Assembly (NCBI GenBank): GCA_018402455.1
Contig: JAGYIG010000004.1
Span: 62,001-126,000, forward strand
Reading direction: 5' to 3'
Length of the DNA: 64,000 bases
Source: Opitutaceae bacterium
GTDB taxonomy: Bacteria; Verrucomicrobiota; Verrucomicrobiia; Opitutales; Opitutaceae
Shown here: piece by piece, positions 9,498 to 27,088 of the stretch
Position numbering within the stretch: the stretch's first letter is position 1
Layout of the letters: each line of letters opens with the position of its first letter
Notes under the pieces: generated by a model
The model's database searches: none
The model's input: the letters and a program-made list of their open reading frames with translations, nothing else
Told to the model about the DNA's origin: nothing
Made by a program: the position numbers and the translations under genes

Positions 9498-9680
9498 CCC
9501 GGGGCATCGCATCCGCCCGCCGATTTCGTCCCGAGTGTCCACGCTCGGCCATCAGCTGGGCTGGATCGGGAGCGGCTTGCCACCGCCCCCCCAACGAGAG
9601 AGGATTTTCCGGCAGACCGCCTGCGACGAGCAATGCTCCACCACGCGGCTGGCGCCCCCATCCACCCGCTGCCCCGCCCC

Positions 9681-12542
9681 ATGAAATCCCTCAGCCTGCC
9701 CCTCTTGTTTATCCTCAGCAGCCTGCTCAGCCCGGCCTCGACCGATCCGCACGATTCGATGTACCAAACCCGGCCTTCGGACCCGGCGGCAGTCTATCTG
9801 ACCTCGGACGACTTCCCGGTGACCGGCGATGGGATCGCCAATGACGCCCCGGCCCTGCAGGCCGCCATCGACCGGGTCGCCGCCAGTGGCCACGCGGGCG
9901 TGCTGTTCATCCCCGCCGGAACCTACCGACTGGACGAAACGGTCTACGTCTGGTCCGGCGTTCGGCTCATGGGCTACGGCGCGGAACGCCCCGTTTTCCT
10001 CCTCGCCGAAGCCACCCCGGGCTTCCAGGGCGAAGACGACGCCTACCTGCTGCACTTTTCCGGCAACCGCCAACCGCCCGAGCCCGGCGAACGCCCCCGC
10101 GATGCCAACCCGGGCACCTTTTACGGTGCCTTGAGCAACCTCAATTTTGTAATCGAGCCCGGGAACCCGGCGGCCATCGCCATCCGGTTCCGGGTCGCCC
10201 AGCACTCCTTCATCTCCCATTGCCATTTCGATCTGGGCGATGCCCGGGCGGGCTTGCGCGACATCGGCAATGAAGTGGAAAACCTCACCTTCTCGGGCGG
10301 CGACTACGGGATCATGACCCAGCGCTCCTCCCCCGGTTGGCCCATCCTCGTCATTGACTGCCGCTTCGAGGGTCAACGCGTCGCCGCCATCCAGACCCGG
10401 GAAGCCGGCCTGGTGGTGGTGCGCCCGCAGATCAAAAACACCCCGACCGCCATCACCATGACCCCGGGCATCCCGGATCAACTTTCCGTCTCCGATGCCC
10501 TCCTTGAAAACATCTCCGGCCCGGCATTCTCCATCAGTCAGGAGCACAAGGCCCGCACCCAAGTTCACCTCGAAAACATCGGCTGCATCAACGTGCCCGT
10601 GCTCGCGCGGTTCAAGGAAAGTGGGCGGACGATCACGATGCCGGACACCCCCTACCGCGTTGAGGAGTGGACCCATGGCCAGCACCTGGACCGCAGCGGG
10701 AGAGGCATCAAGACGGCTTCGAGCCTGAGGCCCCTTTCCCGCGCTCCCCAAGCCGTCGGAACCGACCTCCCCCGGATTCCGCCCTCCCCCTCCTGGACCA
10801 ACGTCCACGACCTCGGCATCATGGGCGATGGGGAAACCGATGTGACGGAGGCGCTCCAGCACGCCATCTTGAACCACCAGGTCCTCTATTTCCCGATTGG
10901 AGTCTACCGGGTGAGCGACACCCTGAAACTGCAGCCGGACACCGTCCTCCTGGGATTCACTCCCGGGTCCACGGCCATTTATCTGGCCCCCCATACCCCG
11001 ACCTTTCAGGACGCCACGCGACCGAAGGCCGTGATTGAGGCTCCCGCCGGCGGAACCAACATCCTCCACAGCATCGGCGTCTACGCCAGCCCCTTCAATC
11101 CGGCTGCCTGCGCCATCCTCTGGAAAGCCGGTCCCCGTTCGCTCCTCAACGATGTCCGCCTCCACGGAGGCCACGGCACCTACCTGCCCGGGGGGATCAA
11201 TGACTCCCGGGGCAAAGACCACCGGGACCAATGGGACACCCTCCCCCCCAGCCTTTGGGTGACCGACGGCGGCGGCGGCATGCTCAAAAACATCTGGAGC
11301 CCCAGCCCCTATGCCAAAGCCGGCCTCGAGATTTCCGACACCGCTACGCGCGGCCGCCTCTATGCGATGTCCGTTGAACACCACGTCAGCCATGAAGTCA
11401 TCCTGCGGAACATGTCCCAGTGGCGGTTTTTCGGCCTGCAATTCGAAGCCGAGCGGGAGGAAAGCCCGCGAGCGCTTCCGCTGCTGATTCAAAACAGCCG
11501 GGACCTGCTCTTCGCGAACACCTTCTTCTACCGCGTCGTCAGCAGTTTTATCCCCTTCTCTGACGCCATCCGGGTTGAGGATTCCCACCATGTCCGGCTG
11601 CGGAACACGCACGTCTACAGCAATTCCAAGGTTTCCTACGACAACAGCGTGTTCCTCGCGGACGCCGGCAACGCCATCCGCGATTCCGAGATCGCCGTAG
11701 TGGATATACCACTACCACCGGCCGCCTTGCCATCGACCCACCGGCAGGCGGATAAAATCGCCGACGGTTTCCTCAATATTTCCGGCTTCGCCACCGCCCC
11801 CAACGGGGATGTCTATTTTGCCGATCCCCGGGAAGCGCAGATCCACCGCTGGTCAGTCGCGGACCAGCAGGTTCACCGGGTGCTGCACCTGGAGGCCCGG
11901 CCGGAACAACTCGCGTTCGACTCGTCCGGCAACCTCCTCATCGTCGCTTATGAAGGCGACGGAACCGTGCTCGCCTACCATGCGGAATCCGGGATAACCC
12001 CCCTCGCGGCCCAACCCAACCGGGCCCGTCCCGGTGCCACCCCCATCCTGCCGGTCAACCGCTGGACCGGCACCGCCGCCTTCCTGCAACAGAGCACAAC
12101 CTCCCCACCCGTTCACTACGTATCCCCCGACGGCACCGCCTTCATTCCCGCCAGCCGGGAATTCCATGCCGGCGCGACCCGATGGGGGACCAAACTGTCG
12201 GACTTGCTGCGGGCCTTTGGCATCGCCCCGGCTCAGCCGGGCCAGCGCTTCTATGTGTCCAATGAAATGGAACTCACCACCTGGTCCTTTCGGGTCGAGC
12301 CGGATGGCACCCTGACGGATCCCGCACTATTCGTGAATGAAGGAGGCGAAGCCGTGGCGGTGGATTCGGCTGGCAAGGTCTATATCGCCGCCGGCCAAAT
12401 CCAAATCTTCGCTCCCGATGGCACCCGCCAGGGAGAGATAACTGTGGCCCAACGCCCCACCAGCCTGACCTTTGGCGGACCCAACGGCGACACCCTCTTC
12501 ATCGGAGCGCGCTCCGCCCTTTACCGGATAAAAATCCCCTGA
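9681..12542 (+). CDS. pectate-lyase-like beta-helix protein with C-terminal propeller
   Basis: The ATG at 9681 gives a signal peptide (MKSLSLPLLFILSSLL) and 953 residues; an upstream in-frame start at 9633 adds a tail that fits no export signal. Two right-handed beta-helix segments each open with a pectate_lyase_3/GH55-like motif: VTGDGIANDAPALQAAID near residue 35 and IMGDGETDVTEALQHAI near 390. From about 690 the sequence changes to propeller-like repeats (ISGFATAPNGDVYFADP, LAFDSSGNLLIVAYEGDG) like those of SMP-30/NHL proteins. The substrate is unknown. The context suggests a plant polysaccharide side chain or a sugar lactone. The 183-bp gap before the start shows nothing notable. Confidence 0.7.
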   Translation: MKSLSLPLLFILSSLLSPASTDPHDSMYQTRPSDPAAVYLTSDDFPVTGDGIANDAPALQAAIDRVAASGHAGVLFIPAGTYRLDETVYVWSGVRLMGYGAERPVFLLAEATPGFQGEDDAYLLHFSGNRQPPEPGERPRDANPGTFYGALSNLNFVIEPGNPAAIAIRFRVAQHSFISHCHFDLGDARAGLRDIGNEVENLTFSGGDYGIMTQRSSPGWPILVIDCRFEGQRVAAIQTREAGLVVVRPQIKNTPTAITMTPGIPDQLSVSDALLENISGPAFSISQEHKARTQVHLENIGCINVPVLARFKESGRTITMPDTPYRVEEWTHGQHLDRSGRGIKTASSLRPLSRAPQAVGTDLPRIPPSPSWTNVHDLGIMGDGETDVTEALQHAILNHQVLYFPIGVYRVSDTLKLQPDTVLLGFTPGSTAIYLAPHTPTFQDATRPKAVIEAPAGGTNILHSIGVYASPFNPAACAILWKAGPRSLLNDVRLHGGHGTYLPGGINDSRGKDHRDQWDTLPPSLWVTDGGGGMLKNIWSPSPYAKAGLEISDTATRGRLYAMSVEHHVSHEVILRNMSQWRFFGLQFEAEREESPRALPLLIQNSRDLLFANTFFYRVVSSFIPFSDAIRVEDSHHVRLRNTHVYSNSKVSYDNSVFLADAGNAIRDSEIAVVDIPLPPAALPSTHRQADKIADGFLNISGFATAPNGDVYFADPREAQIHRWSVADQQVHRVLHLEARPEQLAFDSSGNLLIVAYEGDGTVLAYHAESGITPLAAQPNRARPGATPILPVNRWTGTAAFLQQSTTSPPVHYVSPDGTAFIPASREFHAGATRWGTKLSDLLRAFGIAPAQPGQRFYVSNEMELTTWSFRVEPDGTLTDPALFVNEGGEAVAVDSAGKVYIAAGQIQIFAPDGTRQGEITVAQRPTSLTFGGPNGDTLFIGARSALYRIKIP

Positions 12543-13564: not shown

Positions 13565-14989
13565 TCAGGCCTTGCGGACTGCCTGCGGCTGGAGATCGGT
13601 CAACTCGTCAATGCGAACCTTGCGGCCTTCTTCGATACTCTTGCGGGCGGCAATGCCGACCAGAATGGAAAAGGCGCCGTCGCGCGAACCCGCCGCGTGC
13701 TGCAAGGGGTCGGGCTCGTTGGCGTCCCGCAGCATTTGATTCTGCAGGCGCTTGTCGCCACCGCCATGGCCGCCGACTTCCCGGGGGACGCGGATCTGTT
13801 GGTAGTCCCCAAAGTTGTCCATGACGTAGATTTCCTCGAAATCCTTGATGTCGTCGGCGTCCTGCGACATCTCGATCGCGTGCAGCTCCGCCTGATTGAG
13901 GCGGTTGTCCTTTTGCCACGGGATGCCATCCCAGGCATCGATGCGCCCTTCCTCGCCATTAAAGGCGATGCGCATGCCCTCGTAGGGGGAGTAGGTGGTC
14001 AGCGAGTAGTTCACGACGATGCCATTGGCATAGACAATCTGGACCGACATCTTGTCGTAGATGTCGATTTCTTCGCGATAGACGCAACTATCCCGCAGGT
14101 AGCCATCGTGGTGCTCGTGATCCGCATAGAGCCGCATCGAGCTAGGGCTCTTGGTGATGTCCCAGTAGTAACGGCATTCCTGCTGGTGGGCACAACTCCG
14201 ACAGTTTTCGCCTCGGAAGGGTCCATTCTTGCCGTAGTGCTCGAGGGCGCCGTAGGCGAAAACTTCCACGGGATCCGAGTCGATCCACCAGTTGAGCAGG
14301 TCGAAGTGGTGGGTGGATTTGTGCACCAGCAGGGTGCCTCCCTGGTCCCGCAGGCCATGCCAACGACGGAAATAGGAGGCTCCGTGATAGACGTTGAGAT
14401 ACCAGTTGAAGTCCACCGAGGTGATGCGACCCACGCGATGGGTGGAGATCAGTTCCTTGATCTTGGTGTAGTGCGGGTTGTAGCGGTAGTTGAAGCCGAC
14501 GCGCAGGCTTTGGGCGGAGGCCCGCTCGGCATCGATGATTTGCTGGCACTTGTGTTCATCGGTGGTGAGCGGTTTTTCCGTGATGACCTCAATGTTCTGA
14601 CCCAAGGCCTTCACGATGAATTCGTGGTGGTTGGCGTCGACGGTGCAGACGATGACACGGTCGGGCTGGGTGTTGGCCAGCATCTCATCGAAATCGGAAA
14701 ACAACGGGCAGTCGGTGCCGATATAGTCGCGGGCATACTCCAGCCGACCGGGGTTGGTGTCGCAGAGCCCGACAAATTCAAGCACGTCAGCGTAGTTTTC
14801 CTGCAAATTCCGGCCCCAGAAGTTGATGCCGCGAATGCCTGTGCCCACGAGACAGACCTTGAGTTTTTTTCCGCTGGCCAACGCGCCACGCAACTCTTGC
14901 TGGTTCATGAGCAGCGCGCCCGCTGCGAGCATACCGCCGGATTTCAGGAACGACCGCCGGTCGATGGGGGGGAGCGAGGAGTCTTGCAT
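13565..14989 (-). CDS. Gfo/Idh/MocA-family oxidoreductase, Tat-exported
   Basis: This 474-residue protein starts with a twin-arginine signal (DRRSFLKSGGMLAAGALL), so export is folded and cofactor-bound. The Rossmann fold begins at KVCLVGTGIRGINFWGRN and includes the family's conserved EKPLTTDEHKC, whose Lys lies near the active site. The remainder matches the C-terminal alpha/beta domain. Members oxidise or reduce sugars and cyclitols, or cleave glycosidic bonds by an NAD-dependent route. The substrate here is not predictable. It is the last minus-strand gene of the xylan locus, about 200 bp downstream of the triple esterase. That gap (14990-15185) shows no clear terminator. Confidence 0.85.
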   Translation of the reverse strand: MQDSSLPPIDRRSFLKSGGMLAAGALLMNQQELRGALASGKKLKVCLVGTGIRGINFWGRNLQENYADVLEFVGLCDTNPGRLEYARDYIGTDCPLFSDFDEMLANTQPDRVIVCTVDANHHEFIVKALGQNIEVITEKPLTTDEHKCQQIIDAERASAQSLRVGFNYRYNPHYTKIKELISTHRVGRITSVDFNWYLNVYHGASYFRRWHGLRDQGGTLLVHKSTHHFDLLNWWIDSDPVEVFAYGALEHYGKNGPFRGENCRSCAHQQECRYYWDITKSPSSMRLYADHEHHDGYLRDSCVYREEIDIYDKMSVQIVYANGIVVNYSLTTYSPYEGMRIAFNGEEGRIDAWDGIPWQKDNRLNQAELHAIEMSQDADDIKDFEEIYVMDNFGDYQQIRVPREVGGHGGGDKRLQNQMLRDANEPDPLQHAAGSRDGAFSILVGIAARKSIEEGRKVRIDELTDLQPQAVRKA

Positions 14990-15185: not shown

Positions 15186-18100
15186 TTAGTCCGTGAACAG
15201 CCCGAGGTCGATCGACTCGGCGAGGGCGCGGAGGCCCGTTTGGTTGAGGTGCAACTTGTCGCCGGTGTCGTAGGCAGGGAGCAGTTGCCGGGGATTCGCG
15301 GGATCGCGCACCACTTGATCAAAATCCAATACGGCGTCGAACCGGCCGCTGCGGCGGATCCAATCGTTGATCAACGCCCGTTTCGCTTCGCCCTGCTCCG
15401 TCCAGTAAAAGCACTCGGCGTAGGGGGTGAGGGTGGCCCCGTAAACCTTGATGCCGTGATCGTGGGCGCGGGCGATGGTCTGATCGTAGGCCGCGATGAT
15501 TTCCGCCGCACTGGAATGGCCGCCGCCGAGGTCGTTGATGCCTTCGAGGATGATCAACCACTTGATCCCAGGCTGCGCGATCACGTCGCGGTCGAACCGG
15601 GAAACCATGTTGGGCCCGAGGCCGCCGACCAGAATCGTGTTGCCGCCGATGCCTTGGTTGAGCACCGCCACCTGAGCGGTCGCTTCGTGGGCCCGCAGGC
15701 GCGCCGACAACACGTCGGGCCAGCGGTCGTTGCCGTTGCTGGTGGAGCCGCGACCGTCGGTGATCGAGTCGCCCAGAATCGCCACCGCCGCCGCCTCGGG
15801 GGCATCGGTTAGCACCTCCACGCCCGTCAAAAAATACCAATGGTCGACCCGCCCGGAATCGGACAGGTCAGCTGCATCGACCGCCGCCCCGTCATAATTA
15901 AAATACGAAGTGGTGCGGGAGCCGGGATGACCGGTGAGGCCGTCGGGGGCGGTGGTGGTTTGAATGGTGACGGCTAGATGCGCCATCGGTTCGAGCGGCA
16001 TCTCCACCACGTCCGAGAGCCACAGGGCCCCCGGTTGAATCGTGATCGTTTCTTGGCCGCCACTGAAGGTCAGCGGGGTTGAAGTGTCCGTCTCAATGCG
16101 CCCTTCCCCCGCGGACAGTGCGACCGCCGCCGCGTCGATGGTCAGGGGCGCGTCGCCAAATGCGTTGGAAAACCGCACCCGGAAGGCATCACCACCAATG
16201 GAGGTCAAAAACTTTTGGCGCACCGTGGCGTTCTCAAACTGCGGGGCGGGCGGTTCGTTGCGATCCTCGGTCAACTGGGGGGCCGTGGTCCAGGCCGCGA
16301 CCCAGCGCTTATCCGTCGGGGTCGAGAGGTAGTGATCCGCCCAGGCGAGGAACATCGGCCAATTGGGCAACGTGGTGTGGCCGTCTTCGTGCTGTCGCCA
16401 CGCCAGCTCGCCCTCAACCAGCGCCGGTCCCGTGCCGGGGTATTCATCCGTGCCGAGCCCACGCCGGTCCAAAAATTCATAGACCGGGCTCGCCATCGCC
16501 GTCGCCTGGAAGGTGCCACGTTGGTCGATCCACTGGCCTTCGACGTCAGGTGATCCCACGCTGATGAAAGCCGGCCGCGGGGCAAACAAGGCGACCAGTT
16601 GATGCGCGTCCACGGGGAGGTCGTCCGGGGTCAGGGTGCTGCCATATTTGAGGTAGTTGCCCGCCATCCAGTGGTAGGCGTAGGTCCCGGTGAGGTTTTC
16701 CAACCGCTCGCCGAAATCGCGGCGGTGCAGCGCCAGCCCGCCCTTGCCCGAGGAACCGATGAACCCAATGGCAAACCGCGGTTCAAAGGCCATCGCCACG
16801 GCCGCGGCCTTGCCGTAGCGCGACAGGCCCTCAATGCCGACTTGGGTGGCGTCCACCGCAGGGTCGGTCTCAAAGTAATCCAACGCCCGACTCGCGCCCC
16901 AGGCCCAGGCGCGCAGGGCGCCCCACTGGTCGGGCGAGCGGGGCTGGCCCGCGTTGGTCAGGCCAATGATGCCGGCCGTCAGCCCCTCGCCATGGTCCGC
17001 CTGGAACGACGTGGGCACGAGGGTGGCCACCGCCCAGCCGTGTTGCAGCACCTGCTCCTCCCACGTGGGCCCCGGCGGTCGCGGAAACCGGGCCAGTATT
17101 TCCGGGGGCCAGCCAAAGTGCAGCATGACCGGTACCGGACCCGCCGCACCCGCCGGCACGGAAAGGGACAGGTCAAGGGTGACCTCCAAAAACGGATAGT
17201 CGGAATTGTCCACCTGGCCGGCGAGCTTCCTGGTGATGACCGACACCCCGCCCTTGGTCTCGGTGACCTCCGACTCCACCACCCATTCGACGGCGGGGAC
17301 TCCATCCGGAATGCGGCCGTAGATTTCCCGTTCGAAATGAGCGAGCAACTCCTCCCGGCGACGCGGCCAGTCGGCGGGGGCGACCACCGGGGTGCCATCA
17401 TCGAAAATCAACGCGTCGGGATAATCCGGATACGGCTCGGCCTTGGTCTCGTCGTAGTTGGGGGCGGACGCGGGATCATCGGCATTGGGATTGGCCTGGT
17501 GGGGCCGGCCACCCATGGCGGTGATGCGGAGGGCCTGCCGCAAGCGGGCATGGTCGGCATTGCGATCCAGCGGCCCGGGCGGCGTGAGCCCATCCCGCAG
17601 CGCGGGCAGCCAGGCTGCCTCCATCCGCTGCACGTAAGCATCCTGCGACCCCTCCTCATTCTGGTGGCCCGAATCGGGCAATATCACCCTCTCGTGGTAG
17701 GGCTCGAGTTGGTTCGCCGCGGCAAAGATGCCCGCCGGGGGGCAGGTCACGTCCTTCAGTCCGACGCCAATCAACATGGGCGCCCGAATGCGACGGGCAA
17801 AATTGACGATGTCGTAATAACCACCGGCCTCGGCAATCGCCGCCGGGTCCTTATCGGGTCCGCTGTTCGGCCAATACGGGAAGCCGACCGCGCGGCCGAC
17901 GGCTTCGCCGTTGAAATCGGCTCCGGCCGGTACCAACGCGAGCGCGGCGGTGACGTCGGGGTGCAGTCCAGCCGTCACAAACGCCTGCTGCCCGCCTTGG
18001 CTGGTGCCGGTGACAACCAGCACCTCTCCATTCCAGTCGGGCCGCGATTTGAGGTATTCGACCGCGCGGTAACACGAGAGATACATGCGCAGGAAGTAGC

Positions 18101-18866
18101 TGGTCTCCCGGTCTTCGTTGCCTTGCCGAAAGTAGTCATCGAGCGGGCCCTCCCGCTGCGCGGCGTAGAAAGCTTCGTCTTCGTCGATCGGCAGGTCGTG
18201 GGCCAGGATGTTCAGCGCGAGCCAGCCCTGCTCTGCCCGGTCGGTCACCCAGTCCGGCTCCAGCCCGTAGACCCCCGCCCATTGCACGCGGAGCAACGCC
18301 GGGAAAACCTGGCCGTCGGCGGGGCGCGCCAACTGACCCTGGATTTGGGAATCCCGAAAACCCGCCATGAACACGTGCCAGTAGTCCACACCGGCGCGGT
18401 TCGCGGGCTGCACCGTCAACCGCGGGTTGGCCGGGACGGATTCGAGTTCGGCGATCTTGGCTGCCCACCAGGCATCGAAGTCGGCGGGTTCTTCCACTGC
18501 CGCCTGGATTTGGTCCGGCGCCACCACCGCTCCGCCGCGACCCACGTGGGCGCCGGCTTCGTCGGACCAACGGACTTCCGCCAGGATCGTGCCCGGATCC
18601 CCCGCCGGTCGGGAAAGCACGGCCACGTCATCCGCCATCAACAGCGGTCCGGATTCGGTCTCGGTCAGCCCGCCGGACTTGAAGGCAAACGTGGGTGCGT
18701 CCGGCACCAGCTCCGGTCCGGTCCACGCAAAGGTCCACGCAATGGTGTCAGCGGGGGCGTAGACCCCGGACTCGCGGTCCGGGTTGACCACAAATTTCGC
18801 CGAAACCCCCACCGGCCCGAGGCCGAGGAGGAACAGCACGGGAAGGAGCCTGGCGGGGACACTCAT
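15186..18866 (-). CDS. three-domain exported esterase: CE7 + CE15 + SGNH hydrolase
   Basis: The 1226-residue protein has a signal peptide (about 1-23) and three complete alpha/beta-hydrolase-type catalytic domains. Residues 120-428 are a CE7 acetyl xylan esterase: S289 in GTSQGG, D372 in GLKDVTCPP, H401 in DSGHQNEEG. Residues 440-850 are a CE15 glucuronoyl esterase: S682 in GLSRYGKAA, the GSSGKGG motif, and a His at 826 or 830 in RQHEDGHTT. Residues 852-1226 are an SGNH/GDSL hydrolase: S1034 in GDSITDG, G1075-N1076, N1111 in GIND, and D1203/H1206 in DKLHLN. CE7 and SGNH enzymes commonly deacetylate xylan, and CE15 cuts lignin-glucuronate esters. All three active sites look intact. The gene ends up 11 bp from the upstream GH43 gene, so it is probably co-transcribed. 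Confidence 0.9.
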   Translation of the reverse strand: MSVPARLLPVLFLLGLGPVGVSAKFVVNPDRESGVYAPADTIAWTFAWTGPELVPDAPTFAFKSGGLTETESGPLLMADDVAVLSRPAGDPGTILAEVRWSDEAGAHVGRGGAVVAPDQIQAAVEEPADFDAWWAAKIAELESVPANPRLTVQPANRAGVDYWHVFMAGFRDSQIQGQLARPADGQVFPALLRVQWAGVYGLEPDWVTDRAEQGWLALNILAHDLPIDEDEAFYAAQREGPLDDYFRQGNEDRETSYFLRMYLSCYRAVEYLKSRPDWNGEVLVVTGTSQGGQQAFVTAGLHPDVTAALALVPAGADFNGEAVGRAVGFPYWPNSGPDKDPAAIAEAGGYYDIVNFARRIRAPMLIGVGLKDVTCPPAGIFAAANQLEPYHERVILPDSGHQNEEGSQDAYVQRMEAAWLPALRDGLTPPGPLDRNADHARLRQALRITAMGGRPHQANPNADDPASAPNYDETKAEPYPDYPDALIFDDGTPVVAPADWPRRREELLAHFEREIYGRIPDGVPAVEWVVESEVTETKGGVSVITRKLAGQVDNSDYPFLEVTLDLSLSVPAGAAGPVPVMLHFGWPPEILARFPRPPGPTWEEQVLQHGWAVATLVPTSFQADHGEGLTAGIIGLTNAGQPRSPDQWGALRAWAWGASRALDYFETDPAVDATQVGIEGLSRYGKAAAVAMAFEPRFAIGFIGSSGKGGLALHRRDFGERLENLTGTYAYHWMAGNYLKYGSTLTPDDLPVDAHQLVALFAPRPAFISVGSPDVEGQWIDQRGTFQATAMASPVYEFLDRRGLGTDEYPGTGPALVEGELAWRQHEDGHTTLPNWPMFLAWADHYLSTPTDKRWVAAWTTAPQLTEDRNEPPAPQFENATVRQKFLTSIGGDAFRVRFSNAFGDAPLTIDAAAVALSAGEGRIETDTSTPLTFSGGQETITIQPGALWLSDVVEMPLEPMAHLAVTIQTTTAPDGLTGHPGSRTTSYFNYDGAAVDAADLSDSGRVDHWYFLTGVEVLTDAPEAAAVAILGDSITDGRGSTSNGNDRWPDVLSARLRAHEATAQVAVLNQGIGGNTILVGGLGPNMVSRFDRDVIAQPGIKWLIILEGINDLGGGHSSAAEIIAAYDQTIARAHDHGIKVYGATLTPYAECFYWTEQGEAKRALINDWIRRSGRFDAVLDFDQVVRDPANPRQLLPAYDTGDKLHLNQTGLRALAESIDLGLFTD

Positions 18867-18877
18867 CAGTAACGGAG

Positions 18878-20542
18878 TCAGGGCTGACGGGCCATGGGCC
18901 CGAGCAGCACGCCGATAAAGTCGTAGCTGGTTTCGACGCTGAGATTGCGGGCATCCTGGATGCCGCCGATCTGGGTCCAGGTCGTCCCGTCATCCTGCGA
19001 GATTTCAAAAACGTAATCCACGTCATGGCCGGTGAGCCGCAGCACCACGGGATCCCCCGGCTGGGCGTCGATCATCGCCGTGGTCACCTGCGCCTCTTCG
19101 GCCGCTCCCTGCTGTTTTTCGAGGAAGACCCGGTAACCGCCCGCCGCCCGGTTCACGCCGAGAACGTAGTGGTGGGTTTCATTGTGGTAGGCGACCAGTC
19201 CGGCCTCGATCCCGGGGGTGGCGGGCAGCTCCAAGGCGGTCGCAACCTGAAAGCGATTATGCTGCAGCCGCCGACCGATGAACGAGGGGTTGTGGCGGCC
19301 GCGCAACGCATCCGATCGCGGCGCGATGGTGAGTCCGTCGCCAGTGGTCCACCATTGCTCCTGCGGGGCGCGCATGAAGAGCCAGGGATCACCCAACTCG
19401 GGCCGGTCGAAATCATCGCGCCAGCTGAAGTTGCCGGTCAGGGGAAAGCCGCCGGCCGCCGACTCCTGCAAGCCGATTCCATTGGGTCCCCGCCCGGTGA
19501 AGGGCACGGGCTTCCCGGGCGGCAGGATGAGGGGCCAGTCGTCCTTCCACGTCACGGGCAGCAGAAAGGTCTGGCGGCCGGTGTTGTAGTGGCCGCCTTC
19601 ATACGGCGTGCAGGCCAGAAAGACGGACCACCAGTTGCCATCGGGACCGATTTCAAAGTCGGCGTGGCCGGTGCAGGTGACCGGATGCGGGCGGTCGGGA
19701 TCGAGGTCGCGCTGGGTCAGCGTCGGATGGTCGGTGAACGGCACATAGGGCCCGTCGGGCGCCCGGCTGCGAAAGATCACCTGCGAATGGTTCACGCTGG
19801 TGCCCCCTTCCGCGCAGTTGAGATAATACCAATCCCCGCGGCGATAGATGTGCGGTCCCTCGATCCACACCGGCTGGGTGCTGAGGTCGACGCCGCCATT
19901 CACAATGATTTTCCGGGGGCCGATCAGCTGCCGGGCGGCGATGTCCCACTCCTGGATCCAGACGGCCCGATGCCCATCGTAGAGGGGGGCGTTTTCGGGC
20001 GGAGGTCCGTTGTTGAGCATCCAGGCGCGCCCGGTGGATTCGTCGAAATAGAGCGACGGATCGATGCCGTCGAAATCCAACCACAGGGGGTCCGACCACG
20101 GTCCGGCCGGATCCTCCGCCGTGATCAGAAAATTCCCCCCGGCGTCGATCATGGTGCAAACGAGGTAGAACAAGCCGTCATGGTAACTGATGGCGGGGGC
20201 GAACAGCGCCCGGCTGATGCCGGCGCCATCGTAGGGCAGCTGGTCGGGCCGGTCGATGGCGTTGCCGATCTGGGTCCAGTTGACCAAGTCCTGCGAGTGG
20301 AAGATCGGCAGGCCGGGGAAGTGAGCGAAGGTGGAGTTGGTCAGGTAGTAGTCCTCCCCCACCCGGCAGATGCTCGGATCCGGGTAGTAGCCGGCCAGAA
20401 TGGGGTTGCGGTATTCGTATTCAGATATCGGTGACGCGAAGATCTCGTCGTTGCCGGTGTAGGTGAAGGTGGTGAACCGCACGGGCGCGGCCATGACGGC
20501 GGCGGCGGTGAGACAAGAGGCAATTAACGTGGTTCTAATCAT
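18878..20542 (-). CDS. GH43 beta-xylosidase, exported
   Basis: The 554-residue protein has a signal peptide (about 1-19), a five-bladed GH43 domain (about 43-350) and a C-terminal beta-sandwich (about 370-554) with FSWRDDFDRPELGDPWLFMR. The catalytic residues are in place: D55 (YYPDPS), D161 (GIDPS) and E228 (IEGPHIY). The two-domain layout and length match xylan 1,4-beta-xylosidases that release xylose from xylo-oligosaccharides; an arabinofuranosidase activity is possible. The gene lies between the GH8 and triple-esterase genes in a minus-strand run with gaps of 45 and 11 bp. Confidence 0.9.
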   Translation of the reverse strand: MIRTTLIASCLTAAAVMAAPVRFTTFTYTGNDEIFASPISEYEYRNPILAGYYPDPSICRVGEDYYLTNSTFAHFPGLPIFHSQDLVNWTQIGNAIDRPDQLPYDGAGISRALFAPAISYHDGLFYLVCTMIDAGGNFLITAEDPAGPWSDPLWLDFDGIDPSLYFDESTGRAWMLNNGPPPENAPLYDGHRAVWIQEWDIAARQLIGPRKIIVNGGVDLSTQPVWIEGPHIYRRGDWYYLNCAEGGTSVNHSQVIFRSRAPDGPYVPFTDHPTLTQRDLDPDRPHPVTCTGHADFEIGPDGNWWSVFLACTPYEGGHYNTGRQTFLLPVTWKDDWPLILPPGKPVPFTGRGPNGIGLQESAAGGFPLTGNFSWRDDFDRPELGDPWLFMRAPQEQWWTTGDGLTIAPRSDALRGRHNPSFIGRRLQHNRFQVATALELPATPGIEAGLVAYHNETHHYVLGVNRAAGGYRVFLEKQQGAAEEAQVTTAMIDAQPGDPVVLRLTGHDVDYVFEISQDDGTTWTQIGGIQDARNLSVETSYDFIGVLLGPMARQP

Positions 20543-20587: not shown

Positions 20588-21877
20588 TCAGGGCTTGACC
20601 GGGCCATAAATGCGAAATTCGCCGCTGGCGTGGAGCAGGCCGAACATCATGAGCAAGCCGCTGTAGTAACGGTGGCTGCGCAATTCGCCCTCGGCCATGA
20701 GGCCGTCGGTGTCGCGGCCCACGTCGTTGGGCAACTCCATGTTCCACAGGCGTCCCACCATGGGTTGGCCGATTTCCCGATCCGCGGCGAGGGCCGCGAT
20801 CGCGGCGGTGCCGGTGAGGCCGTGGGCCAGCCCGGCCCGGTCGCGGACCGTGCCGTCGAGCTCCAACTCGTCCGGCCAGTCATCGGCGGGCTGGGCCGCG
20901 AAGAACCGGAGGATGCGATTGGATTGTGCGATCATCCATTCGTCCTGCCCCCACCAGGACCAGTCCAGCGCGGGCCACGCCAGCGTGCGCCACGCGTCGG
21001 CCGCAAACATCCGCCCCCACCGTTCCAGCGGGGAGCCATCGAATTCGGAATAGTTGGGCATGATACCGGTCTCGGGGTGGGCGGCGCGGCGGAAAAATTC
21101 CCGGCTGGTTTGCGCCACCTCCGCCATGAAAGCCCGGTCCGCCGGATCCTCGGCCCAGCGCGCAAACAGCTCGGTGAAATGCGGGGTGTGGTAGGAGGGG
21201 TCGGTGAATTTTGGTCCCCACTCCCCGTCCGGCGTGAAGCGGATCTGCTTCTCCTCCGGGTGGAACATGCTGACGATGTCGCCGCGGTCCGGTTGATCGT
21301 CCTTGTGGATCATCATCTTGAGGAGATCCTGGGCCTCGCGGCCGTAATTGAAGATGCCCTCTCCGTCACCCCAACGGTGCGAGGCGAAGAACAGCGCCAT
21401 GACCATCCAGTTCTCCCCGTCGGGGGCGGGTCCGGCGCCCCGGATTTCGGAGCCGTCGGACCGGGTCATGTCGCCGTCGTAGTCGCGGTGCCACGCAAAA
21501 TAGCCGCGCAGCGGACCTTCCTCGTAATACATGTGGGTCTTGGCCCATTTCCACAGCGCGTTGAACTCCTGCTGTCGGTCCATCTGCACGGTGATCATCA
21601 TGCCGTAGGAAATGCCTTCCGATCGCACGTCGCGGCTGCCCACGTCGGCCAGGTAAGCCGTGTCCGGGCCGTCCGTGTAATAGATCCGCTCGGTGAACGG
21701 GTCGCCGTAGAATAGCTGATCAAAGGCATCGGCGAGCTTCGCCTGAATTTCCGCGTCGGTCTTGCCGAGGTAGGTATTGAACAGATTGGGATATTCGCCG
21801 GTCAAAGCCGCGCCCCCCGGCGGGGGTGCGGCCATGGCGAATGTGACGGAAAACAGGAGGGGCAGGATTCTCTTCAT
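20588..21877 (-). CDS. GH8 reducing-end xylose-releasing exo-oligoxylanase
   Basis: The 429 residues start with a signal peptide (MKRILPLLFSVTFAMAAP). The GH8 signature is DVRSEGISYGMMITVQMD, with the general acid at E87. AWHRDYDG, APDGENWMVMALFFASHRW and the later MPNYSEFDG match the rest of the (alpha/alpha)6 barrel. The length and sequence character agree with the 'Rex' group, which removes xylose from the reducing end of xylo-oligosaccharides, rather than with GH8 endoglucanases or chitosanases. The signal peptide suggests periplasmic action. A 158-bp gap, including a 'ggagcc'/'gggctcc' hairpin, separates it from the upstream GH67 gene. Confidence 0.88.
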   Translation of the reverse strand: MKRILPLLFSVTFAMAAPPPGGAALTGEYPNLFNTYLGKTDAEIQAKLADAFDQLFYGDPFTERIYYTDGPDTAYLADVGSRDVRSEGISYGMMITVQMDRQQEFNALWKWAKTHMYYEEGPLRGYFAWHRDYDGDMTRSDGSEIRGAGPAPDGENWMVMALFFASHRWGDGEGIFNYGREAQDLLKMMIHKDDQPDRGDIVSMFHPEEKQIRFTPDGEWGPKFTDPSYHTPHFTELFARWAEDPADRAFMAEVAQTSREFFRRAAHPETGIMPNYSEFDGSPLERWGRMFAADAWRTLAWPALDWSWWGQDEWMIAQSNRILRFFAAQPADDWPDELELDGTVRDRAGLAHGLTGTAAIAALAADREIGQPMVGRLWNMELPNDVGRDTDGLMAEGELRSHRYYSGLLMMFGLLHASGEFRIYGPVKP

Positions 21878-22035: not shown

Positions 22036-24153
22036 TCAGTAATCTCCCGGGTGACCCGGAAAGTAGCGGCGGTCGACATCGATATAGTGCTGCAAATCGT
22101 GCTCGGGCGGCTCGACGCCCTCGGGCAGGGGTCGCTGGGAAAACTGTTGAAAATAGAGCAGACACGCATCGCGCCATTCGCGGGCATCCTGCTCCTGCAC
22201 GACCAGGCGTTCACGGGTCGCCTGCCAACGTTCGCGATCGATTTGGTCCCGCAACCCGTCCCAACGCGTGATCATCGCGCGCACTTCGTCAACGCCCTGC
22301 TGGTAACGCAGCGCGAGTTCGTCCCACAGAATCCGGCCGGACTTCATTTCGTAATCCCACGGCACGTGGTGAAACCACAGCAGCAGTTCGTCCGGCACCG
22401 ACGCCAAACTGCCCCACTGCGCCTGCAATTCCGGCGCATACTGTTCGATCGCGTTGGAGCCGGAGGCGACCCGGTCCGCCCCGATGCCCTGCGCGTCGGC
22501 CTGGTGGTAATAGGGTGAGGTCCAATCGGCGCGACCGCCTTCCACCCACGGACCCGGGCCATAGTGATGACCGCGTTCCATGATGTGGTGAAGGCCCAGG
22601 GGCATCGAATAATTCACCACGGTTTCCCGGGAGCCCATCAACAGTTCCACGATGGAGGTCGTCGCCTCCGCATCGGCGTCAAACGTCAGTCGCGCCCATT
22701 CCTCCGCGATGGCCCGGGCCCCGAGGGTGTGGTCCCACGCCATGCGCCCGAAGGCATACCAGTTGGCCTGAGCGAGGGGGTGACCCGTCCAGTTGCGGTC
22801 GGATCCGGTGTTGGCTACGCCACAGATGGCGGAGAGTTCATGGCCATGGAGGGAGCCATCGGTGATGCGGCCGATGGTGCTGCCCTCGCCGCGCGCAAAC
22901 GTATCCTGTTGCAGGACCTCATCCCACATGGTGCCGAGGTAGGCCAGCTGCAGCGAGGCGCCCAAATACTCCTGCGTAATCTGCAGCTCCACCATCTGTT
23001 TGGTCTGCGGCGTCGCGCCGAACAACGGGCTGAAGGCCTCGCGGGGCATGAAGTCGAGCGGACCGTTTTTGATCTGGACCAGCACGTTGTCGGCAAACTT
23101 GCCGTCCAACGGCACAAACTGGTTGTAGGCCTGCTTCACCCGATCGGTGTCGTCTTCATAATCGTAGACGAACGCCCGCCACATCACGATACCGTCGCGC
23201 CCGTCGGCCGCCAGCGGCGCAGCCAGCAGGTTCGCGCCGACGGCGTGGTCCCGGCCGTAGTCATGCGGGCCCGGCTGCCCCTCCGAGTTGGCCTTCACCA
23301 CAAATCCCCCGAAGTCGGGGATGTGCTCATGGATCTCATCGATCTTGGCCTCCCACCATGCTTGCACGGTCGGGTCCAGCGGATCGGCCGTGTCGAGGCC
23401 GCCGATTTCGATCGGCGCACTGTAGCGGGCGGTCAGGTAGGTGCGGATGCCCCAGGCGCGGAAAATCTCGGCCAGCGCCGCCACCTTCTCGAGGTAGACC
23501 GGCGTCAGGATGAGCGCGTTGGCGTTGACGCTCGTCACCACCGTGCCGTTGAGGCCCAGCGAAGCGAGGGCCCGGGCGTAATCGGTGTAGCGTGGTGACA
23601 AAATGTGGGGCAGCTCATGCCAGCGCCACAGCGAGAACCCCGCGTAACCCCGCTCCACGAAACCATTCAAGTCGTCCCAGTGATTGAGGAGGCGGCGATC
23701 GATTTTGGGCACGGCCACGACGGCGAGCTCATGGACAGGTTCCCGCATTTGCACGCGCCGCAGTAGATCGAACACCCCATAGAGTGCACCGGCGTCGGAG
23801 TTGGCCCGGATGCGCACCGCCTTTTCCTCGTCCACGGTGACATTTTCCAACGCATACCCCTCGGCACCGAGGGCGGGGTCGGCCTCGCGGGCAACCACGT
23901 GCACCGTGGTGAGTTTGCGCCCCAGCATCGTATCGAGACCGCGAGCGATCTCCGCGCGGGCGGATTGGATGATCGCCGACTCCGCCCCGCTCGGGGTGGC
24001 GATGATGATGGACTGCATCGGCCGCCGGTAATCATTGCGATTCGAGGTTCCCTCGATGCGGTCGTAGCGGAGCCACAGCCGATAGCCGTCCTCCGCCGTC
24101 AGTTCGCCGGTGGCGAATATTCCCAGGATGAACGTGAGGAGGAGGCGAGCCAT
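22036..24153 (-). CDS. GH67 alpha-glucuronidase
   Basis: I take the ATG at 24153 because it yields a clean signal peptide (MARLLLTFILGIFATGELTA) and a 16-bp gap to the upstream transporter gene; the in-frame start at 24207 would overlap that gene. The 705-residue product matches GH67 across its length: N-terminal domain about 20-145, the barrel opening with RRLLNHWDDLNGFVERGYAG, and a helical C-terminal domain. The active site has E291 (KANSEGQPGP) as general acid, and D367 (KNGPLDFMPRE) and E395 (ELQITQEY), as in characterised members. It removes 4-O-methylglucuronate from the non-reducing end of xylo-oligosaccharides, complementing GH115. Confidence 0.93.
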   Translation of the reverse strand: MARLLLTFILGIFATGELTAEDGYRLWLRYDRIEGTSNRNDYRRPMQSIIIATPSGAESAIIQSARAEIARGLDTMLGRKLTTVHVVAREADPALGAEGYALENVTVDEEKAVRIRANSDAGALYGVFDLLRRVQMREPVHELAVVAVPKIDRRLLNHWDDLNGFVERGYAGFSLWRWHELPHILSPRYTDYARALASLGLNGTVVTSVNANALILTPVYLEKVAALAEIFRAWGIRTYLTARYSAPIEIGGLDTADPLDPTVQAWWEAKIDEIHEHIPDFGGFVVKANSEGQPGPHDYGRDHAVGANLLAAPLAADGRDGIVMWRAFVYDYEDDTDRVKQAYNQFVPLDGKFADNVLVQIKNGPLDFMPREAFSPLFGATPQTKQMVELQITQEYLGASLQLAYLGTMWDEVLQQDTFARGEGSTIGRITDGSLHGHELSAICGVANTGSDRNWTGHPLAQANWYAFGRMAWDHTLGARAIAEEWARLTFDADAEATTSIVELLMGSRETVVNYSMPLGLHHIMERGHHYGPGPWVEGGRADWTSPYYHQADAQGIGADRVASGSNAIEQYAPELQAQWGSLASVPDELLLWFHHVPWDYEMKSGRILWDELALRYQQGVDEVRAMITRWDGLRDQIDRERWQATRERLVVQEQDAREWRDACLLYFQQFSQRPLPEGVEPPEHDLQHYIDVDRRYFPGHPGDY

Positions 24154-24169
24154 GGAAAGAAGGTAAAGG

Positions 24170-25669
24170 TTAGCCTGCCGCGGACCGCCGCGCCGCGAGT
24201 TCGTCACTCATCTTGGTGGCGACCTCCTTGGTGATCGGATACCACAACATGAAGATCACGCCGATGAAGAAACAGCCCCCGGAGTGCAGACTCACCATCG
24301 TGCGCACCCCGGCCAACACCGCCGGATCATTGGCGGTCTCCGCGGTGTAGCCATACATCGAGAGCAATCCGCCCGCGATGGCGCCACCGAAGCCAAGCCC
24401 CGCTTTCAGCGCGAAGACCACGCCGGAAAACACAAAGCCTGTCGACCGCCGATGGTTCTTCCATTCACTGTAATCGGCCGTGTCCGCGATCATGGCCCAC
24501 AGCAGCGGAATCGTCGGGCCGTAGCTGAAACTCGTCAAAATGGTGAGGACCACCACCAGGTTCACGTCCTCCGGGGCCACGAAGTAGTTGAGCGCCTGGA
24601 ACAAGGCTGCTCCCGCCAACCCGACGGTGAACACCAGCTTCTTGCCGAACCGGTCGGCCAGGGGTTTGGCGCACAAGACGCCGATGATGGTGACAAAGGT
24701 GCCCATCATGCTCAGCACACTGAATCCCACCACCGACGGACTGGCTCCGGGTTTGACCACCATGCCAAACAAATCGAGGACCCGCAGTCCGAAGGAGGGG
24801 TTCAGCAGATCAGCCGCGGTCGCCGTGAACCCCAGGCCCTGGACAAACTCCAGCATCACCTCGGAATCCAAATAACGGGTCACAAACACGTAGTTGGCGT
24901 TACCGCGCAGGGCCAGGGTGATGAAGACAAACAACGTCATGCCAAACATGGCCAGCCACGGGCGATTCTTGAGCACCTCCTGGAAGTCTTTTTTGATGTC
25001 CGCCTTCTGTCCCGCCGGCGGCTGGACCCGCTCCTTGACCGAGAAAAACGTGATCACAAAACACCCCACGGAAACCAGCGCGTAAATGGCCACCGTGACC
25101 GACCACCCTTTCGGGTCCGTGACACTGCCGTCGCCAAATTTGGTGACCAACGGCAGGGTGAAGCCTTGCACGATGAAGGTGGCGGCCATGGCCGCCACAA
25201 AACGATAGGAGGACAAGGCGGTGCGCTCGCTGCTGTTGCTCGTCATCACCCCGTTCAAGGAAGCGTAGGGGACATTGTTCACCGTATACGCCATCATCAG
25301 CAGGGTGTAGGTGATGATGACATACCAGAGCTTGGTGGCATCACCGAGTCCGCTGGGCACCGAAAACGCCGCCCAAAACATCAGCCCGAAGGGAATGGCC
25401 GACCACAGCAGCCACGGCCGGAACTTGCCCCAACGGTGCGTGGTGCGATCCGCAATCACCCCCATGATCGGATCCGTGATCGCGTCACTCAACCGCACCC
25501 ACAGCAACATCGCCCCCATGGCTGCCGCGCTGATCCCGATCGAGTCCACGTAGAACGCCGTCGGGAAAAAGATGAACATCTGAAACACGAAGTTCGCCGA
25601 AGCATCACCGAAGCTGTAGCCGGACTTCTCCCGGAAGGAGAGTTTTACGTTGGTGGGGTCACTACTCAT
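24170..25669 (-). CDS. GPH-family xyloside/glycoside:cation symporter
   Basis: The 499-residue protein has about 12 hydrophobic segments. It carries the glycoside-pentoside-hexuronide (GPH) family signatures FVDSIG-like YVDSIGISAAAMGAMLLWVR, SDAITDPIMGVIADRT and HRWGKFRPWLL. Family members include the xyloside transporters XynB/XylP and melibiose permease, and use proton or sodium gradients in the inner membrane. It lies between xylA and the GH67 gene, which points to xylo-oligosaccharides, aldouronic acids or xylose as cargo. A terminator separates it from xylA, so it may have its own promoter or depend on readthrough. Confidence 0.88.
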   Translation of the reverse strand: MSSDPTNVKLSFREKSGYSFGDASANFVFQMFIFFPTAFYVDSIGISAAAMGAMLLWVRLSDAITDPIMGVIADRTTHRWGKFRPWLLWSAIPFGLMFWAAFSVPSGLGDATKLWYVIITYTLLMMAYTVNNVPYASLNGVMTSNSSERTALSSYRFVAAMAATFIVQGFTLPLVTKFGDGSVTDPKGWSVTVAIYALVSVGCFVITFFSVKERVQPPAGQKADIKKDFQEVLKNRPWLAMFGMTLFVFITLALRGNANYVFVTRYLDSEVMLEFVQGLGFTATAADLLNPSFGLRVLDLFGMVVKPGASPSVVGFSVLSMMGTFVTIIGVLCAKPLADRFGKKLVFTVGLAGAALFQALNYFVAPEDVNLVVVLTILTSFSYGPTIPLLWAMIADTADYSEWKNHRRSTGFVFSGVVFALKAGLGFGGAIAGGLLSMYGYTAETANDPAVLAGVRTMVSLHSGGCFFIGVIFMLWYPITKEVATKMSDELAARRSAAG

Positions 25670-25768: not shown

Positions 25769-27088
25769 TCAACCGTGCAGGTAGGTGTTGAGCAGTTTCT
25801 CCAGATACTCCTGGCGACCGGAGACCCGGGTGGGCTCGCCCAGCTTGAAGGCAATTTTTTCCAGCTCCTTGAAGCCGACCTTCTGCTTCTCGATCTGGCG
25901 GCCAAAACCGACGTTGAACGAGCTGTAACGGGCCTTGATGATCTCCTCGAATTTGCCTTCGGCGAGGATACGGCGGGCAATTTTGAAGGCCAGCGCATAG
26001 GCATCCATGCCACCGATGTGGGCGTGAAACAGGTCCGCGAGATCGATGGAGGGACGGCGCAGTTTGGCATCAAAATTGAAGCCGCCACTACCCAGCCCGC
26101 CGGCCCGCAGAATGGAGATCATGGCGAGGGTGAGCTCCTTGACGTCCGTATTGAACTGATCGGTGTCCCAGCCCAGCAACAGATCGCCGGAGTTGGCATC
26201 GATCGAGCCGAGCATGTTGTGCGCGGCCGCGACTTCGATCTCGTGGTTGAAGGTGTGGCCGGCGAGGGTGGCGTGGTTGGTCTCGATGTTAAACTTGAAG
26301 TGCTTGTCGAGCTTGTAGGTGCGCAGGAAGGCCACGCCGCTGGCGACATCGAAATCGTATTGATGCTTGGTGGGCTCCTTCGGCTTCGGCTCGATGAGGA
26401 ACTGGCCTTTGAACCCGATCTGCTTGGCGTAATCGACCGCCATGTGCAGGAACGCCGCGAGGTGGTCCTGCTCCCGCTTCATGTCGGTGTTGAGCAGGGT
26501 CTCGTAGCCCTCCCGACCACCCCAGAAAACATAGTTCTCCCCCCCGAGGGTGAGGGTGGTTTCCATCGCCTTCTTCACCTGCGCCGCCGCATACGCGAAA
26601 ACGTGGGCGTCCGGATTGGTGGCCCCGCCGTTCATGTAGCGGGGGTTGGTGAACAGGCTGGCCGTGCCCCAGAGAAGCTTCACGCCGGACGCCTTTTGGT
26701 GGGCCTTGGCGTGCTTCACGAGCACATCGAGATTCTTGTTCGACTCGCGCAGGGTTTTGCCTTCCGGCGCGATGTCCCGGTCGTGGTAGCACCAGAAGGG
26801 GGCTTGAATCTTTTGAAAAAACTCGAAGGCCGCATCCATGCGCTTCTTGGCGATGGACATCTCGTCCCGGCCTTTCTCCCACGGCCGCTCAATGGTGCCC
26901 GGCCCGAACGGATCCGCGCCCACCCCCCGGAAAGAGTGCCAGTAAGCGATGCCGAAACGCATGTGCTCCTTCATCGTCTTGCCGTCGATCACCTCGTCGG
27001 GGTTGTAATGGCGAAAGGCCAGCGGGTTGTCCGTGCCCGGACCTTCGTAGGGAATCTGCGGAAAATCCGCAAAATGTCGTGACTTCAT
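25769..27088 (-). CDS. xylA: xylose isomerase
   Basis: The 439-residue protein converts D-xylose to D-xylulose in the cytoplasm with two divalent metal ions. It is a full-length class II enzyme, close in size to E. coli XylA. Visible motifs include the catalytic H102 and D105 in [12 protein letters not shown], the metal-binding [16 protein letters not shown], and [18 protein letters not shown]. The long N-terminus ([17 protein letters not shown]) also marks class II. It has no signal peptide. It is the first gene of the minus-strand catabolic run and is divergent from the LacI regulator. Xylulokinase, the usual partner, is absent from the window. Confidence 0.97.

Follow-up and report, generated by a model that had tools for sequence, protein, structure and literature searches.

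A three-headed esterase from an Opitutaceae bacterium joins CE7-like, CE15 and FjoAcXE-like domains in a glucuronoxylan locus

The esters around the methylglucuronic acid (MeGlcA) branches of xylan are a main barrier to its full conversion: alpha-glucuronidases are hindered by an adjacent acetyl group, and the branch is ester-bound to lignin. The protein analysed here is encoded by a single gene (positions 15186-18866, minus strand) in a 64,000-nucleotide stretch of an Opitutaceae bacterium genome (GenBank assembly GCA_018402455.1, contig JAGYIG010000004.1, positions 62,001 to 126,000), hereafter the window, and carries a CE7-like head, a CE15 glucuronoyl esterase head and an SGNH hydrolase head resembling the acetyl xylan esterase FjoAcXE. 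Among described enzymes, CesA of Ruminococcus flavefaciens (CE3-CE15) likewise combines an acetyl xylan esterase and a non-canonical CE15 in one chain; its authors propose a joint attack on lignin-linked acetylated xylan, the same logic as applied here, and its CE15 is described as being without Reg2, which was counted as a likeness to the window CE15. CesA differs in having two esterases, with an N-terminal CE3 acetyl esterase and no FjoAcXE-like head (PMC11345330). Fll4 of Flavimarina sp. Hel_I_48, called the first such enzyme in a 2025 report (PMC12247016), resembles the window protein in having three esterase domains and lying in a xylan locus, but these are a CE6 and two CE1-like domains with acetyl and feruloyl esterase activity, described together with an extra central domain and without a CE15.

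The individual heads also have described counterparts. FjoAcXE and PbeAcXE match the third head in their carbohydrate-binding module (CBM)-like plus SGNH layout, in shared catalytic and MeGlcA-binding residues and in their alpha-glucuronidase xylan context (PMC9105624, PMC5863359), but they stand alone and have GNSI and DXLHP motifs, whereas the window protein has GDSI and DKLHL and its third head is fused behind CE15. TtCE15A (6hsw) resembles the window CE15 in that Ser occupies the canonical acid site and a conserved Trp is preceded by an acid, but is a single CE15 in the solved construct, with Phe174 in place of a Trp and a longer Reg2 (PMC6484129). An FjoAcXE-like esterase fused to a xylan enzyme is known from Flavimarina Fll1 (GH43-CBM91 plus an esterase near 7TOG; PMC12247016), and CE15 fused to another catalytic domain from BeCE15A-Rex8A (CE15-GH8; PMC8417218) and OtCE15C (CE15-GH106; PMC10807430); in all of these the partner is a glycoside hydrolase, where the CE15 of the window has esterases as partners. 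No CE7-CE15-SGNH or GH115-CE15 protein was recognised among the papers listed by searches of the open-access literature (CAZy, dbCAN and subscription papers lay outside the search), in which Fll4 was the only protein found with three esterase domains. A three-esterase protein (Fll4) and an acetyl xylan esterase-CE15 fusion (CesA) are already known, and both correct the initial annotation of this gene, made by a model from the sequence alone, which had pictured CE15 enzymes as usually single or fused to one binding module or another catalytic domain. New within the literature searched is the combination, above all that of CE15 with a deacetylase type acting on the xylose that bears CE15's sugar.

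The gene starts with ATG and runs through 1226 codons with zero internal stops. The initial annotation had read it as three esterases in the order CE7, CE15 and SGNH, each with its nucleophile and His intact, and this order was borne out by Pfam: AXE1 at residues 123-409 (E 2.6e-33), GCE_fung/CE15 at 646-799 (E 2.5e-27) and Lipase_GDSL_2 at 1030-1213 (E 1.2e-26), with all three domain scores exceeding the curated cut-offs. In a PDB sequence search, residues 437-844 matched 6hsw (E 4.2e-99), residues 849-1225 matched 7tog positions 5-385, with both domains covered (E 1.5e-112), and the CE7 part matched 1vlq (E 1e-22), more weakly than the other two heads. Nucleophile, acid and His were located at S289/D372/H401 in the CE7-like head, S682/E776/H830 in the CE15 head (the acid by position) and S1034/D1203/H1206 in the SGNH head, so that nucleophile and His are complete in each. 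By its domains, the window protein is a multi-esterase of the kind described for Fll4, with three predicted esterase units in a single chain.

From the domains, their order, the catalytic residues, a second full-length copy, selection and gene context, we consider it about two-thirds probable (0.66) that this single chain is a set of three serine esterases that strips acetylated glucuronoxylan of the esters surrounding a single MeGlcA branch and so opens this branch to GH67 and GH115 alpha-glucuronidases. By analogy with characterised relatives, the CE15 head would cut the ester joining MeGlcA to lignin, and the CBM-like plus SGNH head would take the acetyl off the MeGlcA-bearing xylose; we infer that the CE7-like head would strip other acetyls and that the heads would cooperate. 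Once cleared, the branch would become accessible to GH67 and GH115, and xylanases, GH43 and GH8 would gain access to the chain, with the products imported by a GPH-family symporter and passed to the xylose isomerase XylA. The suggestion in the initial annotation that acetyl groups and the lignin ester are removed together gains weight from the type of the SGNH head, one that deacetylates MeGlcA-bearing xylose. As a natural protein that couples a predicted lignin-ester cutter to a deacetylase acting beside the branch, and that has relatives within its genus with only CE7 or with CE7-CE15, it allows a direct test of whether linkage helps.

The CE15 head (residues 437-848, 16323-17558, minus strand) scored 96.7 bits against a GCE_fung cut-off of 27 and carries the GxSRxGK nucleophile motif as GLSRYGK. 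Ser682, Arg683, Lys686, Trp779 and His830 were invariant in 119/119 CE15 rows of the alignment. The canonical acid site is occupied by Ser705, leaving no acid there, and Ser was found at this site in 108 of the 119 rows; all 119 have an acid two to three residues ahead of the conserved Trp, which in the window protein is Glu776 (Trp minus 3), the putative catalytic acid by position. The same arrangement is reported for TtCE15A, with Ser304 at the canonical site and Glu374 before the Trp (PMC6484129), and is named CE15-A in PMC11345330, whose text uses the two letters inconsistently. The head is therefore assigned, by alignment, to the non-canonical (CE15-A) glucuronoyl esterase type, and its activity would be that of characterised relatives. 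In the alignment to 6hsw, TtCE15A has a Reg2 insertion some ten residues longer than that of the window CE15.

The third head comprises a CBM-like domain (residues 849-1018, 15813-16322, minus strand) with R869, N870 and R984, and an SGNH catalytic domain (residues 1019-1226, 15189-15812, minus strand) with S1034, R1039, G1074, N1111, D1203 and H1206. The initial annotation had seen no obvious carbohydrate-binding module; the CBM-like domain is present, as part of this SGNH enzyme type. The best PDB match, 7tog (the others being 7toh and 7toi), represents an SGNH hydrolase of 386 residues that we take to be PbeAcXE because the PbeAcXE residues R25, N26, R139, S188, R193, G228, N265, D363 and H366 fit the alignment letters by hand count; 7TOG is also cited for the same unclassified esterase family in PMC12247016. 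Enzymes of the FjoAcXE type, an unclassified carbohydrate esterase group in the 2022 paper, are reported to take the 3-O-acetyl off xylose bearing 2-O-MeGlcA, with MeGlcA release increased about ten-fold (PMC9105624), and FjoAcXE to boost GH67 activity five-fold and GH115 activity nine-fold (PMC5863359). The CBM-like domain of PbeAcXE is described as contributing ligand and active-site residues, with no separate binding pocket seen in it (PMC9105624). The window protein has the corresponding N-terminal CBM-like domain tightly joined to SGNH, and the MeGlcA-binding residues R25, N26, R139 and R193 of PbeAcXE correspond to R869, N870, R984 and R1039. The catalytic and oxyanion residues S, G, N, D and H of SGNH were kept in 24/24 Opitutaceae rows. 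Asp replaces Asn in the proposed GNSI signature in all 24 of these rows, and so the signature is invalid for the Opitutaceae group. The third head is thus FjoAcXE-like by alignment, not a strict member of the type. A generic GDSL lipase was ruled out by the full-length 7tog match, and CE20, described as having an ancillary domain inserted inside the SGNH fold, by the 7tog alignment, in which the SGNH domain is unbroken and the beta domain lies ahead of it.

The first head (residues 123-430, 17577-18500, minus strand) scored 115.6 bits against an AXE1 cut-off of 21, and has the GxSQG motif (GTSQGG) and the S289-D372-H401 triad, these residues being conserved across 35 related rows (S in 35, D in 34 and H in 34). 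Its closest PDB matches were CE7 acetyl xylan esterases and cephalosporin C deacetylases, with weak secondary matches to cinnamoyl esterases. Two of the three CE7 signature motifs, as defined in PMC9606172, are missing, however: the site aligned to RGQ is HDL (H in 34/35 and D in 33/35 rows), and HE at the catalytic His is HQ in the window protein, with E in 0/35 rows. Since this departure holds in nearly all of the related rows, the head, by its motifs, is only loosely CE7 and belongs to a separate subfamily. The earlier assignment to CE7 acetyl xylan esterases therefore stands for the AXE1 profile, GxSQG and the Ser-Asp-His triad, and does not for RGQ and HE.

Ahead of the CE7-like head lie a signal-peptide-like stretch (residues 1-24, 18795-18866, minus strand), judged by eye, and a domain of unknown type (residues 25-122, 18501-18794, minus strand) with no Pfam match. 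The former agrees with the earlier view that the protein is exported, which is probable on this reading of the N-terminus; the latter adds a fourth stretch to the three-domain layout first proposed, of which the three heads stand. An AlphaFold2 model of residues 27-1226 was poor (12 alignment rows, mean predicted local distance difference test score 44.9, predicted template modelling score 0.32), and its sole use was the strands predicted at the N-terminus. Rough pairwise counts of nonsynonymous (dN) and synonymous (dS) change between the window genome and a second species of its genus gave dN 0.145 and dS 1.02 for the CE7-like part, 0.076 and 0.99 for the CE15 part, and 0.162 and 0.77 for the SGNH catalytic part; each catalytic part shows purifying selection, and dS approaches saturation. 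The stretch at about 25-122 evolves faster (dN 0.597, dS 1.24).

The initial annotation had placed the gene in a glucuronoxylan locus, in agreement with the GH67, GH8, GH43, GH115 and XylA genes around it. On the same strand, the order of transcription is XylA (25769-27088), GPH-family sugar symporter (24170-25669, Pfam and sequence match), GH67 alpha-glucuronidase (22036-24207), GH8 (20588-21877), GH43 with GH43_C2 (18878-20542, separated from the triple gene by 11 bases), the triple gene and a Gfo/Idh/MocA oxidoreductase with a twin-arginine translocation signal (13565-14989); GH67, GH8, GH43 and the oxidoreductase were assigned by Pfam. A GH115 alpha-glucuronidase lies on the plus strand (6555-9497). 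GH67 and GH115, the partners boosted by FjoAcXE, are thus both encoded within the window, which favours the proposed branch-clearing function. Four GH10 matches were found elsewhere in the genome.

The distribution of the fusion was surveyed in samples of the family (252 genomes, 228 with some match), the order (372 genomes) and the phylum (337 genomes), in which at most two candidates were scored per genome and the figures are those among the matches listed, and in a scan of 84,980 species with six exact 8-residue patterns. Architectures were read in 131 loci and again for L150-L165, with other fusions identified by Pfam on 15 long frames, and rows covering less than 85% of a domain were removed before residue counts and trees. 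The genus of the window is represented by eight genomes (G000-G007, with G000 the window genome). Among the matches listed for the family, a match through all three parts was seen only in G000 and in a second species, G007, where the whole fusion is 1222 aa long and 77% identical to the window protein; in a third species, G004, the fusion runs 71 aa into the SGNH region, up to the contig end. G001 and G002 have CE7-CE15 without SGNH, G005 and G006 the CE7-like part alone, and G003 (69% complete) gave no match to the triple esterase. Within the genus, the FjoAcXE-like head occurs only inside the triple protein (3/8 genomes). No further triples were found among the matches listed in the order and phylum samples, nor in the best 80 of 213 relatives from the species scan. 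In the genomes searched, the combination thus turned up only in three species, all of a single Opitutaceae genus, a rarity that describes what the searches saw and is no proof of absence.

Because G007 has the whole fusion and G004 the fusion up to its contig end, the gene is not a merged-gene artefact, in line with the single polypeptide of the initial annotation. The window genome is in 100 contigs and 91.1% complete, and each part exists as a stand-alone gene in relatives, as would be expected if separate genes had been merged by assembly or sequencing error; but the same seams recur elsewhere (both in the complete G007 gene and in G004, and the CE7-CE15 seam in G001 and G002, one contig each), and the absence of stops in 1226 codons and the constraint in every catalytic part make such an error barely credible. 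A different possibility is that the CE7-like head acts on another ester, such as a phenolic ester or another sugar acetate, in which case the protein would combine two xylan esterases with an enzyme of another kind. The missing RGQ and HE, with the H and D conserved in place of RGQ, and the weak cinnamoyl-esterase matches are in keeping with this, as is the setting of the CE7-CE15 genes of G001 and G002 among housekeeping genes, where a scan of nine neighbours showed no carbohydrate-active enzymes. In a comparison picked post hoc, with unequal flank lengths and shared genera (L176, L177 and L181; L048 and L049), the flanks of 8/22 stand-alone FjoAcXE-like loci (L048, L049, L166-L185) contained a GH67 or GH115 homologue, versus 0/20 for CE7-like loci (L186-L205; Fisher p 0.0038). 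The first count favours the branch-clearing reading of the FjoAcXE-like head, and the lack of alpha-glucuronidase homologues at all 20 CE7-like loci is in keeping with another substrate for the CE7-like head. Against another substrate stand the top PDB matches to CE7 enzymes, the retention of Ser, Gln, Asp and His, and the place of the head in the xylan operon of the window, and we regard it as quite improbable. It is also unlikely, if less so, that the chain merely fixes the stoichiometry and export of three active esterases, each working alone with no gain over a mixture. Such co-packaging would fit the varying seams and the genus members with one or two heads, and intact BeCE15A-Rex8A is reported to have been no different from an equimolar mix of its domains (PMC8417218). 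It fits less well with the adjacency of the two heads for the same MeGlcA-xylose, whose junction is very short in G000, G007 and G004 (seams between heads are short throughout the genus alignment), and with the suggestion by the CesA authors, a hypothesis from an AlphaFold model, that the CE3 and CE15 active sites face each other (PMC11345330).

Several of these points also weigh against the clearing of one MeGlcA branch by three cooperating heads, which remains our preferred reading. The activities and cooperation of the heads are predicted from sequence; the BeCE15A-Rex8A result shows no gain from fusion; and the AlphaFold2 model was too poor to lend cooperation geometric support. The model is at its least certain in the substrate of the CE7-like head, which lacks RGQ and HE, the housekeeping setting of the CE7-CE15 pair in G001 and G002 speaks against a xylan role for that pair, and the flank comparison carries the limits given above. 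In the CE15 head, the lignin-facing Phe174 of TtCE15A is Trp586 (F in 63/119 and W in 17/119 rows). The third head has GDSI for GNSI and DKLHL for DXLHP (P in 15/24 and L in 9/24 rows), and in its MeGlcA site Arg984 is invariant, with N at the Asn870 site in 10 and R at the Arg1039 site in 14 of the 24 rows; since these two sites differ, the FjoAcXE-like family is not uniform and its substrate may vary.

In trees of the SGNH domain, a clade of five rows (100/99) united the sequences of G000 and G007 with the stand-alone genes found in G132, G133 and G148, and the G133 gene adjoins GH8, GH67 and GH43 homologues of the window operon (57-60% identity). The five fused CE15 rows grouped with the CE15 of a CE15-GH43 protein (G387; Shimodaira-Hasegawa approximate likelihood ratio test 99) and next with two Phycisphaerae rows (89), separate from GH115-CE15 rows of the same family in a quick tree with long branches. 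The CE7 trees placed the CE7-only genes of G005 and G006 between two-domain and three-domain rows, and grouping of the five fused CE7 rows was disfavoured (approximately unbiased test, p 0.0157; the group was defined after the first tree, and the second tree was without the long row L045). A stepwise ladder from CE7 through CE7-CE15 to the triple was not upheld by these trees and the test, which leaves repeated loss of CE15, repeated joining of CE15 or gene exchange as the explanation. In G004 (L034) and G006 (L036), seven frames upstream of the esterase gene are 84-95% identical, while G006 has CE7 alone at this site, G004 has a longer gene with CE15-SGNH, and the CE7 parts are 64% identical. 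Shared flanks with differing esterase genes indicate that one chromosomal site holds both forms, the gene being exchanged or fast-evolving, and the contrast hints at gene exchange.

A broader proposal is that Opitutales built CE15-centred multienzymes for the MeGlcA branch on several independent occasions (as CE7-CE15-FjoAcXE-type in the window genus, as GH115-CE15-SGNH in a further three genera of the family and as CE15-GH43 in another family of the order) and that the sites of the triple act in concert on one decorated xylose. We offer this tentatively and at less than even odds; such coupled removal of the lignin ester together with the acetyls beside it, if true, would have no precedent among the enzymes found in the literature searched.

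GH115-CE15-SGNH proteins were seen in three genera of the family, at L039:1-4713 (G246), L040:4115-9265 (G151) and L165 with L020 (G051), the last starting at a contig edge so that only the end of GH115 is visible; their SGNH domains were assigned by Pfam. A GH115-CE15 protein without SGNH is encoded in G133 (L041:8194-12384), and a CE15-SGNH protein in G145 (L157:4391-6655), where the SGNH is platelet-activating factor acetylhydrolase-like, unlike the third head of the window protein. The CE15-GH43 fusion of G387 (L152:5838-9263), with the CE15 that comes closest to the window CE15 clade, belongs to another family of the order. GH106-CE15 fusions of the OtCE15C kind were found among G173 L159:2300-7036 and G002 L160:5004-9659 and 2583-4922, a set of loci that also includes the window order turned round, with a weak AXE1-like domain behind a CE15. 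At L048 and L049, stand-alone CE7-like and FjoAcXE-like genes are adjacent on opposite strands, with a GH115 homologue close by. In the window itself, the GH115 gene adjoins a 1479-aa GH43-GH127 fusion with DUF4986 and DUF6805 (2099-6538, plus strand), and a 969-aa protein (9633-12542, plus strand) has a pectate-lyase/epimerase-like domain and, after it, an SMP-30/gluconolactonase-like region.

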